Shown: piece after piece, positions 1-10,501 of the stretch
Numbering within the stretch: position 1 is the stretch's first letter
Layout: every line of letters begins with the position of its first letter
Source: Pirellulales bacterium
Lineage (GTDB): Bacteria; Planctomycetota; Planctomycetia; Pirellulales; JACPPG01
DNA length: 64,000 nucleotides
Assembly (NCBI GenBank): GCA_035546535.1
Contig: DASZWQ010000050.1
Span: 124,001 to 188,000 of the forward strand
Reading direction: 5' to 3'
Translations under genes and position numbers: made by a program
Notes under the pieces: generated by a model
What the model was told of the DNA's origin: nothing
The model's database searches: none
What the model saw: the letters and a program-made list of their open reading frames with translations, nothing else

Positions 1-2
1 AG

Positions 3-830
3 AAGCAGGACTCGTCCGCCTCGGCCCGCAAACGTGTCCAGGCAGCCCAGGAAAAAATGGAAGCGGCCCGACAAAAGCTGGAAAAAGCCCAGCGTGAAGG
101 GGCCACCGAAGAGCAAGAAGCCGCGATTCGCGAGCTGGAGCAAGCCAAGGCCGAGCTGGAAGAGATCCTCCGTCAGCTCCGCGAAGAAGAACTGGAACGG
201 ATGCTGGCCATGCTCGAAGGGCGCTTCCGTAAAATGCTGCAGGCCCAGGTCGAGGTTTACGAAGGAACCAAGCGCGTCGACCAGACGCCGCCAGCGGAAC
301 GCGATCGCGACGACGAAATCGAGGCCGGTCGCTTGAGCCGTAAGGAATCGCAAATCGTGCTCGAAGCCGAAGGCGCCCTGGCCATCTTGCGTGAGGACGG
401 TTCGGCCGTGGCCTTCCCCGAGGCAGTCGAGCAGATGCGCGAAGACATGGAGCTGATCGTCGGGCGACTCGCCAAGGGAGACGTCGGCGACCTCACCCAG
501 GGCATCGAGGAAGACGTGATCGCGGCGCTGGAGGAGACGATCGAATCGCTGCAAAAGGCCCAGCAGGACATGGAAAAGCAGAAGCAGCAACAGGCGCAGG
601 AGGGTGAGCCGCAGGAGCCGCCGCTGATCGACGGCCTGGCCGAGTTGAAAATGATCCGTTCGCTGCAAATGCGCATCAACCTGCGCACCAAGCGGCTGTC
701 GCGGTTGGTCGAAGGCGAGGTTGGCCAGGCCGACAAGCCCGAGTTGCTCGAACAACTCGAGCGCCTCGCCGAGCGCGAAGAAAGCGTGTTCCGCGTCACG
801 CGCGACATCGTTACAGGGAAGAACAAATGA
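3..830 (+). CDS. Coiled-coil protein, 5' end outside the window
   Basis: The frame is open from base 3 and stops at 830, so the gene begins upstream of the window; about 275 residues are visible. Most of the N-terminal third is Glu/Lys/Gln/Arg-rich with long helical heptads, predicting an extended coiled coil; a second Gln/Lys-rich helix lies near codons 180-200. I see no catalytic motif and no membrane segment in the visible part. The stop overlaps the next start in an ATGA arrangement (827-830), which implies translational coupling with the secreted protein downstream. It is therefore part of the envelope operon running to 8354. Function unknown; a structural or scaffolding role is inference from the coiled coil only. 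Confidence 0.8.
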   Translation, partial: KQDSSASARKRVQAAQEKMEAARQKLEKAQREGATEEQEAAIRELEQAKAELEEILRQLREEELERMLAMLEGRFRKMLQAQVEVYEGTKRVDQTPPAERDRDDEIEAGRLSRKESQIVLEAEGALAILREDGSAVAFPEAVEQMREDMELIVGRLAKGDVGDLTQGIEEDVIAALEETIESLQKAQQDMEKQKQQQAQEGEPQEPPLIDGLAELKMIRSLQMRINLRTKRLSRLVEGEVGQADKPELLEQLERLAEREESVFRVTRDIVTGKNK

Positions 831-1870
831 AGCGACGTGCAATATTGACACTGCTGCTGCTTGTGGTTGCGCGCGGTGCTGCACGCGCCGACTCGCACCC
901 CGACGCGCTTGGCCAGATTCCCGTGATCAAGGCCGCGACCAACGACGAGGTGCAGAAGCGCGCGCTGGCCTACCTGACCGAGCGCCAGGCGGCGCCGGAG
1001 GTCAACACGGCGGCCGCGGCGATTTGGGCCGGCGACACGAGCGCCGCGACGGCGCTCGATCGGCTCGTGGCCACGATCGCCCTGGTTGAACCGCGGGCCA
1101 AGGCGCTTTTGGAACTCTGCGCTCATCAGCGCGAAGCGCGGGCCCTGGCCGCCCAGGATTGGCTCACGGCCGACGACACGCCCGCCTGGGTGCGCAACAA
1201 TCTCCGCTTGTATTACGGGCGCTGGTTGTCGCAGCAACGACTCTACGACGAATCGCTCGAGCAACTGGCCGGACTCGAACCAACGGACGTCGTCGATCCC
1301 GCCGCACTCTTGTTCTATCAGAGCGTGGCGCATCATCGTCTGCTGAACAAAACTGATGGGCTGCGTACGATCGACCGGCTTTTGAGTCAGGTTGTCGAAG
1401 GGCCCTCGCGCTATGTGACCGTGGCTGGGTTGATGCGCGAAGACCTCAAGGGGCTCGAAGATGATTCGCTCGATCACATCGCGCGGCGCATGGACGACAT
1501 TCGTCGGCGGCTGGATTTGGGCCGAGCGGGCGAAAAAGTGCGCAAAGAAGAAGACGGCGTCATCGCCTCGCTCGACAAACTCATCGAAGAGATGGAAAAA
1601 CAGCAGCAGCAACAACAGCAAAAGAACGCCGGCGGCGGCACCGCTCCCCCGTCCCAGCCCATGCCCGACAGCCGCATCGCCGCGGCCAAGGGACCTGGCG
1701 AAGTCGATCGCAAGAAGCTCGGCAACACGGCCGGGTGGGGCGACCTGCCGGCCAAGGAACGTGAAGAGGCCCTACAGCAGATCGGCAAGGATTTTCCCTC
1801 GCATTATCGAGATGTTATCGAGCAATACTTCAAGAAGCTGGCCACCGAAAAGGAACCGTCTGGTAAGTAG
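827..1870 (+). CDS. Secreted protein with poly-Gln tract, function unknown
   Basis: 347 residues starting MKRRAILTLLLLVV, a clear Sec signal peptide ending near ARGAARA. The body is alpha-helical and Ala/Leu-rich. A run of seven Gln codons occurs near 1601-1622 after a charged helix, and a conserved-looking C-terminal segment ending FPSHYRDVIEQYFKKLA follows a low-complexity linker. I recall similar C-terminal segments in planctomycete proteins, but I cannot name a family. The start codon overlaps the upstream stop (ATGA), and the next gene follows after 68 bases. The protein probably acts outside the cytoplasmic membrane. No catalytic residues are recognisable. Confidence 0.8.
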   Translation: MKRRAILTLLLLVVARGAARADSHPDALGQIPVIKAATNDEVQKRALAYLTERQAAPEVNTAAAAIWAGDTSAATALDRLVATIALVEPRAKALLELCAHQREARALAAQDWLTADDTPAWVRNNLRLYYGRWLSQQRLYDESLEQLAGLEPTDVVDPAALLFYQSVAHHRLLNKTDGLRTIDRLLSQVVEGPSRYVTVAGLMREDLKGLEDDSLDHIARRMDDIRRRLDLGRAGEKVRKEEDGVIASLDKLIEEMEKQQQQQQQKNAGGGTAPPSQPMPDSRIAAAKGPGEVDRKKLGNTAGWGDLPAKEREEALQQIGKDFPSHYRDVIEQYFKKLATEKEPSGK

Positions 1871-1938: not shown

Positions 1939-3123
1939 GTGGATTTTTTGATCGTAACAGTGTTGTTGATGGCATCGCCCGGCGTCCAAGTGCAGACGCT
2001 GGCCGGCGGCTCGATCGAGGGGCGCATCACCGCGCTCATGGACGAGTCATTGACCGTTACGACCGACGCGGGCGAACAATCGCTGGCCCTCAAGAACGTG
2101 CAGTCGATCACTGTCGCGGCGCCCACTTCCGCACTCCCCGTCCCCGCGATACGGATCAAATTGGTCGACGAATCGCTGATCGTCGGCACTTCGTTCACCG
2201 TCAGCGGCGCCGAGGCTCACGTCATTCAAGCAGGCGGCACGGAGTTGCTGGTGCCGACGCGGCTGATCGAAAGCGTGCGGCTTCGCGAGCCGACAGGTCC
2301 CGCCGCGGCTCAATGGGATGAAATCGCGGCCGCCGAGCGCAGCGGCGATTTGCTCGTGACGCGCAAGAACGACGCTCTCGACTTTTTTACGGGCGTAATC
2401 CACGACGTAACGCATGAGGCCGTGAATTTCGAGCTCGACGGCGAGGCCTTAAAGGTCAAGCGGGCCAAGGTCGAGGGACTGCTCTATCACGAGGCGGGCG
2501 ACGCGCAACTGGCGCCGTCGCGCGGCGTCGTCAGCGACGCTGCCGGCTCGCAATTCCACGTCGCGCGGCTGAAAGTCGAAGGGGACCAGCTGCAAGTGCG
2601 GACGGCGGCTGGCCTGGAAGTCGCCTTCGCGCTGGATCGGCTTGCTCGCATCGATTTCGCCCAGGGCAACCTGCAATACCTGGGCGAGCTCAAACCTGAG
2701 TCGGCCGTTTGGACCCCCTACTTCGGCGATCCCAATTCCTCGCCCGCCACACGCGCCTTTTTCCAGCCGCACTTCGATCGGTCGATGGATGGCGGCCCCC
2801 TGCAACTGGGCGGCAAAGAATTCACCAAGGGTATCGCCGCGCACAGCCGCACCGAACTGGTCTATCGCTTGCCTGACAAGTTCCGCTCGTTTCAGGCACT
2901 TGTGGGCATCGACGATCGGTTGCGGCCCGGCGGTAACGTGCGTCTGACAATACTTGGCGACGATCGCACGCTCTTCGAGGACACTATTACGGGCAAGGAC
3001 GAGCCACGTTCGCTGGACGTCGACATCACCGGGGTAAACCGCTTGAAGCTTCTGGTCGATTTCGGCGAAATGACCGACGTGGGGGACGCGCTCGATTTCT
3101 GCGAAGCTAGGATTTTGAAATGA
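1939..3123 (+). CDS. Secreted NPCBM/NEW2-domain protein
   Basis: 394 residues with a GTG start at 1939 preceded by GAAGGA. A short hydrophobic N-terminus (MDFLIVTVLLMASPG) serves as signal peptide. Residues of roughly 25-240 form beta-rich repeats of unknown type. Residues of about 255-394 match the NPCBM (novel putative carbohydrate-binding module) pattern: a Gly-rich LGGKEFTKGIAAHSRTEL segment, then VGIDD, and a terminal strand with the DFCEARI ending. NPCBM domains are frequent in secreted planctomycete proteins and are thought to bind carbohydrate; binding here is inferred. The last codon overlaps the start of the serine protease gene (ATGA at 3120-3123), tying the two genes together. Confidence 0.85.
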   Translation: MDFLIVTVLLMASPGVQVQTLAGGSIEGRITALMDESLTVTTDAGEQSLALKNVQSITVAAPTSALPVPAIRIKLVDESLIVGTSFTVSGAEAHVIQAGGTELLVPTRLIESVRLREPTGPAAAQWDEIAAAERSGDLLVTRKNDALDFFTGVIHDVTHEAVNFELDGEALKVKRAKVEGLLYHEAGDAQLAPSRGVVSDAAGSQFHVARLKVEGDQLQVRTAAGLEVAFALDRLARIDFAQGNLQYLGELKPESAVWTPYFGDPNSSPATRAFFQPHFDRSMDGGPLQLGGKEFTKGIAAHSRTELVYRLPDKFRSFQALVGIDDRLRPGGNVRLTILGDDRTLFEDTITGKDEPRSLDVDITGVNRLKLLVDFGEMTDVGDALDFCEARILK

Positions 3124-4970
3124 GATTTGCGTGCGCTGTAACTCTGCTGCTGATGACTTTCCCTGCGCTCGCGCGCGCCGATGTCGATGAGGGCGTGCTG
3201 CGCGCCGAGGCCGAGCGGGTGGCCGTGGTCGCCAAGGCACAAACGGCCGCCGTGGCCATTTTCGCCGCTGACGGCCAAGGGGGCGGTTCGGGTGTTGTTA
3301 TCTCGCACGACGGCTACGCGCTGTCGAATTTCCATGTCACCAAGGGGTCGGGCGACGCCATGAAATGCGGCATGGCCGACGGCCGCCTGTACGACGCCGT
3401 GATCGTCGGCATCGATCCCGTGGGGGACGTGGCGCTCGTCAAGCTGCTCGGCCGCGATGATTTCCCCCACGCCGAGTTGGGCGATAGCGACCAGGTTCAA
3501 GTCGGCGATTGGGCCTTTGCGATCGGCAATCCCTTCCTGTTGGCCAATGACTTCACCCCGTCGGTCAGCTACGGCATCATCTCCGGCGTGCATCGTTATC
3601 AATATCCGGCGGGCACGCTATTGGAATACACCGACTGCCTGCAGACCGACGCGTCGATCAATCCTGGCAACTCGGGCGGTCCCTTGTTCGACAGCCGTGG
3701 ACAACTGATCGGCATCAACGGCCGCGGCAGCTTCGAGAAGCGCGGCCGCGTGAACGTCGGCGTCGGTTACGCGATCTCGATCAACCAGATCAAGAACTTT
3801 CTCGGCCATCTGAAGGCCGGGCGCATCGTCGATCACGCCACGCTCGGCGCCCGCGTCTCGACGCGGCCCGATGGCACCGTGGCGGTCGCCGATATTTTGG
3901 AAGACTCCGACGCCTTTCGCCGTGGCCTACGTTACGGAGACGAGGTCGCCCGTTTCGGCGGCCGCGCGATTCGCACCGTCAACGCGTTCAAGAACGTACT
4001 GGGCATCTTCCCCAAGGACTGGCGCGTGCCGCTGACGTATCGTCGCGAGGGAAAGACCTACGATGTGGCGGTCCGCCTGGAAGGTTTGCACAGCCCCGAG
4101 GAATTGATCTCGAAGGTGCAGGGGCGCGTGCCTTCACCGGAAAAGCCGACACCCGACCAACCAAAAGGTCGGCCGATTCCCAAGCCCGGCGAGCAACCGC
4201 CCGACGATGGGCCGGATGATCAACCGCGGCGGCCGCAGCGGGGCCACGCGCGCACGCCTCCCATGCCTGACGAAGTCAAGGCGTTGTTCGAGGCGCGACG
4301 CGGTTTTGCCAATTTCTACTTCAATAAGGTCGAACGCGCGCGGACCTGGAGCCGGGCCGTGGCTCGCGGTGATTTCCACGAGCAACTGGGCGAATGGACG
4401 CTGACCGGCGAGCTGGCCGGCGGTGGCGAAGCGCAGTTCGTCCTGTCTGAGAACCTGGTGGCTTGCACCATGCCGGGCGGCCATCTGGCTGTGCCCGTCG
4501 CCAACGACCTGGCGAACATCACCGACCCGCCGCGCAGTGGCGGCATGTTGGCCGCGCTGCATTTATGGCGCCGCCTGTTGGTGCTTGGGCCCGATCGTTT
4601 CGGCGATGTTCAATACCTGGGCACCGTCCCCTTGGTGACGAGCCAGGACCTGGTCGATCGCCGCGCGATCATGCTGTTGGGGCGCACCCGGGAAGCCGCC
4701 GCGACCGGCGTTCCGGCGCTGTGCGACTGCCTGGTCGGAACGTACGGTGGCGTCGAATGCCGGTTCATTTTCGATCCGAAGAGCGGCAACCTGGCCGCGC
4801 TCGAGATGTTCCGCGCGCCGGACGACGATCCGTGCGAACTGTACTTCACCGACTATGCCGAGATCGAGGGGCGCGTCTTCCCGCGGCAGATCGAATGCCG
4901 CTACGGCGACGAGACGTACGCCAGCGTCAAATTGCTCACCGTCAAGTTAAACAAACTGGGAGACCGCTAA
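3120..4970 (+). CDS. HtrA-like trypsin-fold serine protease, intact triad
   Basis: 616 residues with signal peptide MRFACAVTLLLMTFPALARA. The S1C (HtrA/Deg) protease domain spans about residues 35-235: His72 in SNFHVTKG, Asp103 in DPVGDVALVKL and Ser185 in INPGNSGGPLF, so the triad looks intact. A PDZ-like domain follows at about 240-325, then a Pro-rich charged linker (about 335-385). A C-terminal beta-rich domain of some 230 residues is unknown to me. It probably cleaves or surveys envelope proteins. Its start overlaps the NPCBM gene stop, and the next gene starts three bases after this stop. That neighbour and the one after it are paralogues of the protease domain without catalytic residues. 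Confidence 0.88.
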   Translation: MRFACAVTLLLMTFPALARADVDEGVLRAEAERVAVVAKAQTAAVAIFAADGQGGGSGVVISHDGYALSNFHVTKGSGDAMKCGMADGRLYDAVIVGIDPVGDVALVKLLGRDDFPHAELGDSDQVQVGDWAFAIGNPFLLANDFTPSVSYGIISGVHRYQYPAGTLLEYTDCLQTDASINPGNSGGPLFDSRGQLIGINGRGSFEKRGRVNVGVGYAISINQIKNFLGHLKAGRIVDHATLGARVSTRPDGTVAVADILEDSDAFRRGLRYGDEVARFGGRAIRTVNAFKNVLGIFPKDWRVPLTYRREGKTYDVAVRLEGLHSPEELISKVQGRVPSPEKPTPDQPKGRPIPKPGEQPPDDGPDDQPRRPQRGHARTPPMPDEVKALFEARRGFANFYFNKVERARTWSRAVARGDFHEQLGEWTLTGELAGGGEAQFVLSENLVACTMPGGHLAVPVANDLANITDPPRSGGMLAALHLWRRLLVLGPDRFGDVQYLGTVPLVTSQDLVDRRAIMLLGRTREAAATGVPALCDCLVGTYGGVECRFIFDPKSGNLAALEMFRAPDDDPCELYFTDYAEIEGRVFPRQIECRYGDETYASVKLLTVKLNKLGDR

Positions 4971-4972
4971 GC

Positions 4973-6022
4973 GTGGGCCAGGTTCGTCCCATCTGTCGTT
5001 TGCTGCCGGCGCTTTGGCTGCTGGCCATCTGTTGCTGCGCGATTGTGATGGCGCGCGCTGAAGAGCCGCGCGCCGCGGGCCTGATCGAAACGATTCGTAC
5101 GATCGAGCCGAAGATCGCCAAAATCTACGGCGCCGGCGGCTTCCAGGGGCTCGAGGCCTATCAAAGCGGCATCCTCATCTCCGCCGAAGGGCACATTCTG
5201 ACCGTGTGGAGCTATGTGCTCGACACCGACGAGATCCAGGCCACGCTCTCCGATGGCCGGCGGTTCAAGGCTGCGGTCCTCGGCGCCGATCCGCGTCTGG
5301 AACTGGCCGTGCTGAAGATCGAAGCCGCCGGGCTACCGCATTTCGAGCTGGCGGCCGCCGCCGCGGCCGAGCCGGGCACGCGCGTGCTGGCCTTCAGCAA
5401 TCTGTTCGGCATCGCCACGGGCGACGAACAAGCGAGCGTCCTGCACGGCATCGTGGCCGGCAAACCACGACTGGAAGCGCGCCGCGGCGTTTTCGAGACG
5501 ACCTACAAGGGGCCCGTTTACGTCGTCGATGCGATGGCGAACAACCCCGGCGCCGCCGGGGGCGCCTTGACCGATTACGACGGGCGGCTGTTGGGCATGC
5601 TCGGCAAGGAGCTGCGCAATTCGCTCTCGAACACCTGGCTTAACTACGCCATTCCGATCGATCAAATGACCGCAACGATCGACGAAATTCGCTCGGGTAA
5701 ATTCGTGCGCAAGCCGGCCGACGAGCCCAATCAAAAACCGCAAAAGGCGGTTACGCTCGACCTGTTGGGCCTGATCATGGTACCCGACGTTCTGGAGCGC
5801 ACGCCCCCCTTTATCGACGCGGTACGGTCGGGCTCGCCCGCCGCCGCCGCGGGCTTGCGCCCGGATGACCTGGTGCTGTTCGTCAACGATCGGCTGGTGC
5901 AGTCGTGCAAGGCGCTCGGCAACGAGCTCTCGTTCGTCGACCGCATCGACACCGTCAAGCTGACGATCATTCGCGATCAAGAGCTGGTCGAAGTGAAATT
6001 AACCGCCCCGAGCGAGCCCTGA
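4973..6022 (+). CDS. Trypsin-fold pseudoprotease with PDZ domain
   Basis: I chose the GTG at 4973 (Shine-Dalgarno GGGAGA at about 4958) because it gives a signal peptide, MGQVRPICRLLPALWLLAIC; the same frame stays open upstream inside the preceding gene. The 349-residue product aligns with HtrA proteases, but the triad is gone: the ILTNNHVV His position is Ser80 (ILTVWSYV), the DLAVLKI Asp is Glu110 (ELAVLKI), and the NPGNSGGPL Ser is Ala195 (NPGAAGGAL). A PDZ domain covers about residues 258-345. Fold motifs are kept while every catalytic residue is changed, so a regulatory or substrate-binding role is likelier than decay. It directly follows the active protease. Confidence 0.85.
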   Translation: MGQVRPICRLLPALWLLAICCCAIVMARAEEPRAAGLIETIRTIEPKIAKIYGAGGFQGLEAYQSGILISAEGHILTVWSYVLDTDEIQATLSDGRRFKAAVLGADPRLELAVLKIEAAGLPHFELAAAAAAEPGTRVLAFSNLFGIATGDEQASVLHGIVAGKPRLEARRGVFETTYKGPVYVVDAMANNPGAAGGALTDYDGRLLGMLGKELRNSLSNTWLNYAIPIDQMTATIDEIRSGKFVRKPADEPNQKPQKAVTLDLLGLIMVPDVLERTPPFIDAVRSGSPAAAAGLRPDDLVLFVNDRLVQSCKALGNELSFVDRIDTVKLTIIRDQELVEVKLTAPSEP

Positions 6023-6034
6023 ATCGGGCCAGCC

Positions 6035-8029
6035 ATGAGACGACACACGCTATTGTCGATGCCAATCCTCGTGCGCACGCTCGCTAGCGCCTGCGCGCTC
6101 GCTATCGGCTGGGCGGCGCCGCTACGGGCCGACGAGCAACTTTCGCAGTTGGAGCAGGCAGCCATCCAGGCCGCCGCGGCGCGCGTCGCTCCGTCGGTCG
6201 TCAGGATCGAAACCGTGGGGGGACTGGAGCGAATCGGCAATCTGCTGCTCAATACCGGTCCGACGACGGGCCTGGTGGTCTCGCCGGAGGGGCACATCAT
6301 TTCGAGCGCCTTTAACTTCATCGCGCGCCCCAGCTCGATCCTGGTGACTCTGCCCGATGGTACGCGCACGCCGGCAAAGCTCGTGGCGAACGATCGACAG
6401 CGAATGCTGGTGCTCTTGAAAATCGACGTCGAGGAAAAGCTGCCTGTTGCCGAGGCGGTGCCCGAAGGCGAGATGCGGGTGGGCCAATGGGCCATCGCGC
6501 TGGGGCGCACGCTGGACACGGCGCAGCCGAACCTTTCGGTCGGGATCGTCAGCGGTTTGAACCGCATCTGGGGCACCGCGCTGCAGACGGATGCGAAAAT
6601 TTCTCCCAGTAACTACGGCGGACCGCTCGTCGACATTCGCGGCCGGGTGTTCGGGGTGCTCGCCCCCCTCTCGCCCGAGAGCCACGAAGATGTTGCTGGC
6701 GTGGAATGGTACGACTCGGGCATCGGGTTCGCCGTTCCGCTGGCTCATATCTACAAGGTTCTGCCGCGGCTCAGCGAAGGGCACGATCTGAAGCCGGGTA
6801 TCCTGGGCGTGAGCTTGAACGGCCGCGACATTTACACCAAACCGGCCACGATCGTCGCCTGTCGCCCGAACTCCCCCGCCTATAAGGCGGGCTTGAAGCC
6901 GGGAGACAAAATCATCGAGATCGACGGTCGCCCCGTAGAACGCCAGGCGCAACTGCGCGAGCGCATGAATCGCCATTATGCGGGCGATTCGCTGAAGGTC
7001 GTCGTATTGCGCGGCGAAGAACGGGTGGAGCGCGACATCACGCTGGTCGACACGCTCGAGCCCTATGGCCGGCCCTTCCTGGGTCTTTTGCCGCTGCGCG
7101 ACGCGCCGGTGTCCGCCGGCGGCGTGCCGATCCGGTATGTCTATCCCGACAGCCCGGCTGCGAAAGCGGGCCTGCAGGCGGGGGACGTGCTCGTTTCCCT
7201 CGACGATCATCCCACGGCGACGCGCGAGGCGCTGGTTGAGCATACGGCCGCTCTTGAAATCGGCACGGTCGCGAAGATCGTCGCGCGGCGCGGGGCCGAG
7301 ACGCTGTCGCTCGATGTGACGCCGGTGGCCGAGCCGACGACGATTCCGGCGACGCTTCCGCCGGCGCGCGAGGCGGACGGACCGGCTGCCGAGGCCGGCG
7401 AGGGACGACCGCAGGTCGGTTCCTTTGCGGTGAAGCTCGCCGAGCACAAGAACGAATGCTCGGCCTATGTGCCCGAAAGCTACGACGCGCACACTTCGTA
7501 CGGCCTCGTAGTCTGGCTGCACCCGCCCGGAGGCACGAAGTACGAAGACCTTTTGGGCCGCTGGCGCGAGGCGTGCGATGCGCAGAAGCTGATCCTGCTG
7601 GCGCCGCGCGCGGCTGATCCGGCCCGCTGGATGCCGCCCGAAGTCGAATTTATCGCCAAGGCCATTGCCCAGATTCGCGAGCAGTACAACATCGACCCGC
7701 AACGCATCGTCGTTCACGGCCAGCAGGCGGGCGGATCACTGGCCTACATGGTGGCGCTATTGCATCGCAACGTGGTGCGCGGCGTGGCGGCGATCGACGC
7801 TCCCTTCATGGGGCGCAGCCCCGATAATGATCCGACCATGCGGCTGACCATTCTCACCACGACGGCGAAGAAGGCCAATTTCGCCGAACAGATCGCGGCC
7901 GGCATCGAGCAATTCCGCAAGCTGAAGTACACCGTGACGGTCGTCGACCAGGGCGAAACAGCCCGCAATCTGGATGCGAACGAATTCGCCGAGCTGGTGC
8001 GGTGGATTGATTCGCTGGACAAGTTCTGA
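6035..8029 (+). CDS. Pseudoprotease with two PDZ domains and degenerate alpha/beta-hydrolase domain
   Basis: 664 residues with a signal peptide ending near PLRADE. The trypsin-like domain (about 40-255) has Phe93 at the His position (IISSAFNFI), Met124 at the Asp position (MLVLLKI) and Tyr194 at the Ser position (SPSNYGGPL). Two PDZ domains follow (about 258-345 and 348-435), then an alpha/beta-hydrolase-like domain (about 465-664) resembling PHB-depolymerase or feruloyl-esterase folds. Its nucleophile elbow reads GQQAGG at 562-567 where GxSxG is expected, so Gln564 replaces Ser. Both enzyme domains therefore look non-catalytic. It lies 12 bases after the preceding pseudoprotease and is probably co-transcribed with it. 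Confidence 0.85.
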   Translation: MRRHTLLSMPILVRTLASACALAIGWAAPLRADEQLSQLEQAAIQAAAARVAPSVVRIETVGGLERIGNLLLNTGPTTGLVVSPEGHIISSAFNFIARPSSILVTLPDGTRTPAKLVANDRQRMLVLLKIDVEEKLPVAEAVPEGEMRVGQWAIALGRTLDTAQPNLSVGIVSGLNRIWGTALQTDAKISPSNYGGPLVDIRGRVFGVLAPLSPESHEDVAGVEWYDSGIGFAVPLAHIYKVLPRLSEGHDLKPGILGVSLNGRDIYTKPATIVACRPNSPAYKAGLKPGDKIIEIDGRPVERQAQLRERMNRHYAGDSLKVVVLRGEERVERDITLVDTLEPYGRPFLGLLPLRDAPVSAGGVPIRYVYPDSPAAKAGLQAGDVLVSLDDHPTATREALVEHTAALEIGTVAKIVARRGAETLSLDVTPVAEPTTIPATLPPAREADGPAAEAGEGRPQVGSFAVKLAEHKNECSAYVPESYDAHTSYGLVVWLHPPGGTKYEDLLGRWREACDAQKLILLAPRAADPARWMPPEVEFIAKAIAQIREQYNIDPQRIVVHGQQAGGSLAYMVALLHRNVVRGVAAIDAPFMGRSPDNDPTMRLTILTTTAKKANFAEQIAAGIEQFRKLKYTVTVVDQGETARNLDANEFAELVRWIDSLDKF

Positions 8030-8494: not shown

Positions 8495-10501
8495 CTACGC
8501 CCCGGCGGCGTCGAGATAAGGATCCTGGCCCAAGTGCTCGTGCATCTTGCGCCGTTCCTTTTCGTAGTACATGAGCACGCGGCGATCGCGAAAGTGCCTG
8601 CGCTCGATGCGCCGCTGGGCCTTGGGGAACAGCGACGCGTAGCTGTCCAGGCCCGTCGCCTGTTTCTCACCGAGTTCTTTCAACTGCTTCGAGCGTTTGG
8701 GGCCCAGGCCGGCGAGCAGAATATCGTCGTCCAGCCCCAGGTACTGCCGCCAGGTGCCGGGATCACCTTGCCGTCCGCAGCGGCCCAGCAATTGGCGGTC
8801 GATGCGGGCCGAATCGTGCATTTCGGTGCAGATGACGTGCAGGCCGCCAAGCTCCGCGACGCCGGGACCGAGCTTGATGTCCGTGCCGCGGCCAGCCATG
8901 TTCGTCGATACGGTCACTTTGCCAAGTTCGCCCGCGTGGGAAATTATCTCGGCCTCTTCGGCGATCTTGTTGGCGTTCAAGATGGCGTGCGGAATGCCGA
9001 CAACCTTGAGCATCTGCGACAAGATCTCGGATTTATCGATCGAGCGCGTGCCGATCAGGATCGGCCTTCCCGTGGCGTGTACCTGCATGACTTCTTCGAC
9101 GATCGCCTGCCATTTGGCGTCGGCGGTGCCGAACGTGGCGACGGGCAGCTTCTCGCGGATGGCTGGCCGATTCGTGGGAATCGGCACCACGCGCAGCTTG
9201 TAGATCCGGCTCAGCTCGCGCGCGGAGCTGCTGCCGGTGCCCGTCATGCCGGCCATGCGCGGATAACGGAGAAAGAAGTCTTGCACCGTGATGCGGGCCG
9301 CCTGGCCCGTGGCCACGGTAACTTCGACTTTCTCCTTCGCTTCGACGGCCTGGTGAATGCCGGCGCGCCATTTGCGCCCTTCGGCCAGTCGTCCCGTGAA
9401 TTCGTCGACAATAACGATTTCGCCTTTGTGCACGACGTAATGGCGGTCGCGCGTGTAGACGCGGTCGACCTTGATGGCCCGCTCGATGAATTCGTACATC
9501 GTGAACAGGCCGACCGAGTCGAGCGCGGCTGGCTTGGGGATGGTGCGAACGAGTTGCCGGCCGGCCGCGTTCAATTCCACGGATTGCTTGTCGTGATCGA
9601 ACTCGTAGTGCTCATCTTCCTTGAATTGTGCGACGGCGTCGGCGCTCCAGCGATGGCACTCGGCGGCGATCAATTCTTCTTCGGTCGGCAGGGCGCTAAT
9701 AATCAGCGGGGTGCGTGCCTCGTCGATCAGGATGCTGTCCGCCTCGTCGACCAGCACGAAATGCGACGCCCGCTGCACCGGCTCGTCACCGCCGGCGGCA
9801 TAATGCCCCAGCATGCCGCCGACCACGTCGGTCATGCCCTCGGCCACGCGGCGCAGAAGCAATCGATCGCGCAAAAAGTCGAAACCAAACTCCTTGCTCG
9901 TGCCGTACGTGACGTCGCAGGCATAGGCCTCGCGTCGGGCCGGAGTTTGCATCGGCGTTTCGATGACCCCCACCGAAATGCCCAGTGCCTGGTACAAGGG
10001 GCGCATCCAGTCGGCGTCGCGGCGAGCCAGGTAATCGTTGACCGTAGCCAGGTGGGCCCCCTTGCCGGCCAATGACTCGAGGTACATGCACAGCGTAGCC
10101 GTCAGCGTTTTGCCCTCGCCCGTCTGCATTTCCGCGATCGAGCGATTGTGCATGGCGATGCCGCCCAGCAACTGCACGTCGAAGTGCCGCATGTTGAGCG
10201 TCCTCCGGCCAGCCTCGCGAACCAGGGCAAAAGCCTCGGGGAGCAAATGCCCAAGAGGCTCGCGGCTACGTGCCCGATACTTGAGCGACAGGCTCCGCTT
10301 GCGCAGTTCCCCGTCGGAGAGCTCCATCAACTCGGGTTCCATGGCCCCGATGACCGGAATGAGCTTAGACCACTGCGCGAGGCGCATGCGGTTTGTGCCG
10401 CCCAGCGTAGCCAGGAATCGCGCCGACAGACTGGTGGGGAGAGAGGTCAAGAGCCTGGGTTCCGACGTGCGTAAAACGTGCGGCGGCCCAGACGGCCGCA
10501 C
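8495..10501 (-). CDS. secA: SecA-like preprotein translocase ATPase, short form
   Basis: 668 residues from a GTG start at 10501; an internal Met at residue 39 is an alternative, but the intervening residues look like a conserved SecA N-terminus. Nucleotide-binding motifs are intact: EMQTGEGKT (Walker A), VDEADSILIDEARTPLIIS, SSRELSRIY in the intermediate region and TNMAGRGTDIKLGPG near the C-terminal half. Typical SecA proteins have about 800-900 residues. This one ends shortly after the KAQRRIERRHFRDRR segment that begins the helical scaffold, so it lacks most of that scaffold, the helical wing and the zinc-binding tail. It may be an accessory SecA paralogue (SecA2-like) with a full-length copy elsewhere. 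A weak -10 (TATGAT, minus strand, 10523-10528) lies just upstream. Confidence 0.87.
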   Translation of the reverse strand: MRPSGPPHVLRTSEPRLLTSLPTSLSARFLATLGGTNRMRLAQWSKLIPVIGAMEPELMELSDGELRKRSLSLKYRARSREPLGHLLPEAFALVREAGRRTLNMRHFDVQLLGGIAMHNRSIAEMQTGEGKTLTATLCMYLESLAGKGAHLATVNDYLARRDADWMRPLYQALGISVGVIETPMQTPARREAYACDVTYGTSKEFGFDFLRDRLLLRRVAEGMTDVVGGMLGHYAAGGDEPVQRASHFVLVDEADSILIDEARTPLIISALPTEEELIAAECHRWSADAVAQFKEDEHYEFDHDKQSVELNAAGRQLVRTIPKPAALDSVGLFTMYEFIERAIKVDRVYTRDRHYVVHKGEIVIVDEFTGRLAEGRKWRAGIHQAVEAKEKVEVTVATGQAARITVQDFFLRYPRMAGMTGTGSSSARELSRIYKLRVVPIPTNRPAIREKLPVATFGTADAKWQAIVEEVMQVHATGRPILIGTRSIDKSEILSQMLKVVGIPHAILNANKIAEEAEIISHAGELGKVTVSTNMAGRGTDIKLGPGVAELGGLHVICTEMHDSARIDRQLLGRCGRQGDPGTWRQYLGLDDDILLAGLGPKRSKQLKELGEKQATGLDSYASLFPKAQRRIERRHFRDRRVLMYYEKERRKMHEHLGQDPYLDAAGA

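Follow-up and report, generated by a model that had tools for sequence, protein, structure and literature searches.

A secreted double pseudoenzyme encoded with one live and one further dead HtrA paralogue in Planctomycetota

Introduction

What does a secreted protein do that carries two enzyme folds and no known catalytic residue in either of them? The question is raised by C, the last gene of a conserved cluster in a planctomycete genome of 6.36 Mb; its relatives carry the labels Pirellulales or other Planctomycetota. In the window (the whole stretch of DNA analysed, 64,000 nucleotides), C follows two further HtrA-type genes in the order A, B, C (Table 1). The original prediction had described C as a four-domain chain devoid of catalytic residues and proposed that it is a binding scaffold. 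The absence of known catalytic residues from both enzyme domains holds, which implies that C binds rather than catalyses. The view of C as a stand-alone protein is incomplete: because a conserved live HtrA (A) and a second dead HtrA (B) are adjacent, co-occur with C and are sometimes fused, the data point to C as a protease subunit or partner that is itself non-catalytic, rather than a lone scaffold. A pseudoprotease beside a live paralogue is a known kind of thing. As far as this analysis shows, both the set of two dead and one live HtrA and the double pseudoenzyme are undescribed, and a literature search of open-licence papers returned no paper on the planctomycete A-B-C gene set.

Results

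Pfam recognizes in C a Trypsin_2 domain (residues 78-208), two PDZ domains and, weakly, an alpha/beta-hydrolase, and AlphaFold predicts the whole chain with a mean pLDDT of 87. The succession of an HtrA fold and PDZ domains is that of the HtrA/DegP family, and the protease-PDZ part matches the folds of DegQ, PepD (Rv0983) and plant Deg1 (Z 27-28); the score against TIGR02037 is 176 bits (cut-off 416). Since full-chain fold searches with C listed HtrA matches alone and no hydrolase, the hydrolase domain was predicted and searched separately.

Table 1. Positions of the features discussed, in window coordinates unless a locus is named.
Feature	Position	Strand	Basis or remark
P1, coiled-coil-rich; ORF starts upstream of window	1..830	+	locus comparison
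P2, conserved protein of unknown function	827..1870	+	Pfam, locus comparison
NPCBM-domain protein, conserved in cluster	1939..3123	+	Pfam, locus comparison
A, HtrA with intact triad His72, Asp103, Ser185 and uncharacterised C-terminal region	3120..4970	+	Pfam, alignment
B, second pseudo-HtrA, one PDZ domain	about 4982..6022 (start codon uncertain)	+	Ser, Glu, Ala at triad positions; Pfam
C, double pseudoenzyme, 664 aa	6035..8029	+	ORF listing, Pfam, residue check, AlphaFold
C, signal sequence, residues 1-33	6035..6133	+	hydrophobic N-terminus in sequence; low-confidence helix in model
C, HtrA-type pseudoprotease domain, residues 38-250	6146..6784	+	Pfam, fold search
C, Phe93, catalytic His position	6311..6313	+	alignment with live neighbour A
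C, Met124, catalytic Asp position	6404..6406	+	alignment with live neighbour A
C, Tyr194, catalytic Ser position	6614..6616	+	kept in 145/146 rows
C, PDZ domain 1, about residues 256-338	6800..7048	+	Pfam
C, PDZ domain 2, about residues 345-430	7067..7324	+	Pfam, AlphaFold model
C, dead esterase-fold (alpha/beta-hydrolase) domain, residues 460-664	7412..8026	+	domain model, fold search
C, Gln564, nucleophile position	7724..7726	+	residue check, profile alignment to 3wyd, 137 rows
A-B fusion, live and dead HtrA domain in one frame	L222:4945-8814	-	
A-B fusion, live and dead HtrA domain in one frame	L232:1754-4888	+	
Gene with two dead HtrA domains	L237:2846-6607	+	beside live HtrA at 3417-4598

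In the protease domain, the three triad positions are occupied by Phe, Met and Tyr, bearing out the predicted lack of His, Asp and Ser, and the triad is absent from the homologues of C as well, with the Tyr near-invariant among them. None of the best 30 orthologues contains an internal stop. Within the genus, dN (0.11-0.26) lies well under dS (0.64-2.0) in every domain of C, a comparison used for its direction alone as several dS values are near saturation.

The hydrolase domain, predicted alone, reaches a mean pLDDT of 95. Among solved structures, the C-terminal esterase domain of LC-Est1 comes closest (3wyd; Z 22.2, 2.1 Å over 181 residues); feruloyl esterases and PHB depolymerases, the families with which the original prediction had suggested an alignment, match as well. 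NCBIfam likewise reports PHA/PHB-depolymerase-type esterase matches on C: the short-chain PHA-depolymerase model NF050058 matches 29/29 members tested, and the window's own domain reaches 54.7 bits where the cut-off is 150. What this fold lacks in C is the GxSxG nucleophile with its Asp and His. Residues 562-567 read GQQAGG, and in the profile alignment the nucleophile Ser of 3wyd (GHSMGG) falls on residue 564, as had been proposed. Among 137 hydrolase-bearing rows, this position is Gln in 44, Glu in 32, Gly in 25, Lys in 10, Arg in 8, Asp in 8, Ala in 5, Thr in 3 and Ser in 2, i.e., non-Ser in 135/137. One of the two Ser-bearing homologues (L041) has no His, leaving a single plausible full triad (L163), and the original prediction, for which Ser at 564 in orthologues was the critical observation, is not refuted by it. 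The exception, L163:7893-9953 (+), carries AYSSGG, GDKDD and RAHAYAP, with Ser, Asp and His where an esterase triad would have them; its hydrolase is possibly the only live one among the rows examined and may be an active relic, in which case the domain would descend from a working esterase.

Taken together, the near-invariant Tyr194, the non-Ser residues at 564, the lack of stops and the excess of dS over dN indicate that both losses in C are family traits beyond chance or decay. Besides the loss in its protease domain, the chain has undergone another, separate inactivation in its esterase fold. The hydrolase domain is attached to C in most Planctomycetia and in one genome of another class (G181), and is absent from the remaining other-class genomes checked and from some Pirellulales lineages. 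It is an optional addition, not essential to the C family, and probably a binding module. As Tyr194 is present in members with and without the hydrolase, the inactivation of the protease probably predates the gain or loss of that domain.

Two alternatives bear on these domains. It is very unlikely that the esterase fold retains some unusual activity with another nucleophile. The conserved columns offer Cys514 alone as a candidate, kept in 116/137 rows alongside conserved Trp532, Asp554 and Arg557, and L163 attests to a homologue with the expected residues; Cys514, however, lies in a predicted helix (503-517) off the nucleophile elbow, there is wide variation at positions 564, 612-615 and 641-645, and the last 65 residues of the 137 rows contain no conserved His column. 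That C is a redundant paralogue drifting like a pseudogene under relaxed constraint seems scarcely credible: conservation is lower in the hydrolase and PDZ2 (mean major-residue share 0.49) than in the protease domain (0.69), and the hydrolase is missing in some lineages, yet the Tyr194 column, dN well under dS in every domain and stop-free best orthologues all speak of constraint.

The triad of A is intact in every homologue scorable there, whereas B and C lack theirs. Toward its C terminus (about residues 330-616; 4107-4967, +), A has no Pfam match, yet the A profile extends over this region in Planctomycetia. Farther upstream, beyond P1, the cluster comprises genes for a DUF4175-like membrane protein (named by resemblance, without a Pfam match), a VWA protein, BatA, a DUF58 protein, a MoxR AAA ATPase, an SQHop-cyclase-like protein and a PQQ-repeat protein. 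Gene order between MoxR or BatA and P1 is shared by 7/7 relatives examined, and most loci with sufficient sequence show it between P1 and C; in a more distant genome (L211), MoxR and DUF58 stand directly upstream of A-B-C. This suggests that the HtrA set is linked to the MoxR/Bat system, a context that in turn suggests an envelope machine. According to a paper on Leptospira, no specific function had been demonstrated for Bat proteins (PMC3557215). At L091:5976-16828 (+), upstream of the window, the cluster can be followed into MoxR-DUF58-BatA-VWA genes. On the other side, a SecA-type protein of 668 aa (8495-10501, -) is convergent with C; a standard SecA has about 900 aa, and this one is perhaps an accessory SecA.

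We compared 173 distinct loci gathered by search with C itself, so that the counts show what accompanies C. By text match, 131/173 read live-dead-dead. Four scored dead-dead-dead: in L226 and L228 an insert in A splits the His and Ser motifs and A is live, and in L134 and L035 A is cut at the contig end. With L226 and L228, the live-dead-dead total is 133, which covers all distinct clusters open to judgement. One more live-dead-dead locus (L046) carries an insert that made C count twice; the remaining loci are incomplete (short flanks or contig ends), controls or divergent sets. Nearly all of the best 80 loci listed in the contig scan are labelled planctomycete.

Across a sample of 196 genomes of the phylum, A-type matches (E < 1e-99) occurred in 34 genomes, C-type matches (E < 1e-69) in the same 34 and B-type matches (E < 1e-57, followed by a gap to 1e-39) in 33/34, an agreement at thresholds chosen after viewing the lists and inflated by common descent and linkage. 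In the sole genome without a B-type match (G213), the contig ends at C. Joint absence of A, B and C from four genomes (G021, G094, G081 and G072) carries little weight as a sign of co-loss, since the genes are usually adjacent and one deletion or assembly gap suffices. A better test is provided by unlinked genes: the single-contig genome G188 retains all three, with A near 4.06 Mb, B near 3.73 Mb and C near 6.61 Mb, and the similar G173 keeps them at three unlinked loci (B at L240 and L239, respectively). The two genomes belong to the same genus and therefore probably represent one event.

A maximum-likelihood tree built from 103 protease domains separates A, B and C into three clades, each with members from several classes of the phylum, by which measure both HtrA inactivations are old. 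Other lineages carry divergent sets (L234-L236) that run dead-dead-live. Their live members fall on the A side and their second dead members on the C side of the tree (support 99), and the first dead members have no firm placement. All dead members of these sets lack the His and most also lack the Ser; the second dead member of G101 has kept NSGG and lost the His. On such phylogenetic grounds, the live/dead HtrA set as a whole is likewise old. In two genomes, A and B are fused in a single open frame (G130, 1290 aa; G136, 1045 aa). A third genome (G236), divergent and with long branches in the tree, encodes a live HtrA and then a single gene for a pair of dead HtrA domains, of which the second lies on the C side; it is the one genome with such a gene. 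All three genomes are drafts, although stops lost by error in separate lineages are unlikely.

Discussion

Starting from the observed missing catalytic residues, conservation, gene order, separate ancient clades, co-occurrence and fusions, we infer physical association, stoichiometry and domain roles for the three proteins. C would be a secreted, non-catalytic HtrA paralogue that acts, jointly with dead B, as partner or subunit of live protease A. The assembly would be a hetero-oligomeric HtrA set within a MoxR/Bat envelope operon, at its simplest an A:B:C trimer in which a single subunit is active. The PDZ domains and dead esterase fold of C might bind substrate tails, envelope ligands or MoxR/VWA proteins, and thereby recruit, gate or switch A. 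A 2024 review describes every HtrA protein characterised to date as a homo-oligomer with the trimer as its basic unit (PMC11642142). What favours a hetero-oligomer is the trimeric construction of HtrA proteases together with the content of the cluster, in which precisely one protease domain is live and two are dead. Residue 160 of C corresponds to an aromatic residue that we take to be part of the trimer contact of HtrA2; as a weak test, this position is aromatic in A (57/57), B (69/69) and C (61/71), with the window's C among the exceptions (Leu160). The differing C-terminal parts of A, B and C count against a mixed trimer. Overall, we hold with about even confidence that B and C are non-catalytic subunits or direct partners of A, most likely in a hetero-oligomeric HtrA. 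More tentative, and below even in our estimation, is the stricter proposal of an obligate heterotrimer of one active subunit and two dead, specialised ones, found in several Planctomycetota classes, tied to MoxR/Bat and using the dead esterase as receptor.

Clustering and co-occurrence fit a shared pathway without contact as well, and a serious possibility, though one to which we give less than even weight, is that B and C form homotrimers of their own or serve as lone PDZ-based receptors or adaptors in the envelope pathway of A, outside the A trimer. C retains the complete HtrA-PDZ-PDZ architecture of DegP/DegQ, the three genes are able to lie apart in the genome, and in magnetotactic bacteria MamO promotes MamE-dependent proteolysis non-catalytically with no MamO-MamE binding detected (PMC4794232). 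Separate assemblies would make less expected both the A-B fusions (two genomes) and the strict composition of one live and two dead members. Non-catalytic subunits are favoured over separate adaptors because one live and two dead paralogues are retained together and sometimes fused, as a heterotrimer would leave them. Mixtures of live and dead paralogues have precedents in ClpP/ClpR, in CspC:CspA and, inside the HtrA family, in the activation of MamE by MamO. Four domains without a catalytic residue would also suit a binding scaffold that stands alone, unconnected to A; the near-perfect co-occurrence of C with A and B, even when unlinked, and their common HtrA ancestry make this improbable.

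An A-B-C set co-inherited across the phylum and sometimes fused renders the concept of a hetero-oligomeric HtrA with dedicated non-catalytic subunits, comparable to ClpP/ClpR, directly testable. It suggests that an HtrA machine can combine one subunit that cuts with two that do not and, if true, would assign a role to many planctomycete proteins annotated as protease-like yet unable to cut.

Among known systems, the canonical HtrA proteases of the Do family (DegP, DegQ and DegS) share with C the protease-PDZ arrangement and fold (Z up to 27.9), whereas C lacks the catalytic triad and has the extra esterase-fold domain. The latter (460-664) has the fold of the C-terminal LC-Est1 esterase and of PHB-depolymerase-type esterases (3wyd, TIGR01840, NF050058); in C, however, nucleophile, acid and His are unconserved and the window's domain scores under the curated cut-offs. 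The Csp proteins of Clostridioides difficile are likewise a paralogous protease set with two pseudoproteases, CspC and CspA, but are subtilisin-like, act in spore germination and belong to an unrelated fold and phylum. CspB is live and fused to CspA. CspC and CspA act as a heterodimer (PMC12880746). In MamE/MamO, as here, a dead HtrA paralogue stands beside a live one in the cell envelope, with one dead paralogue there and two here. MamO differs further in its TauE-like transporter domain and metal site and has no esterase fold; C is, like MamO, a degenerate HtrA encoded with a live one, yet scores far under the cut-offs of the NCBIfam MamE and MamO models (MamO model NF040961, 28.8 bits, cut-off 800). 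The chloroplast ClpP/ClpR core, an ATPase-driven tetradecamer of another fold, offers a parallel in composition: catalytic and non-catalytic paralogous subunits are combined in a fixed mixture within one protease (PMC6508832).
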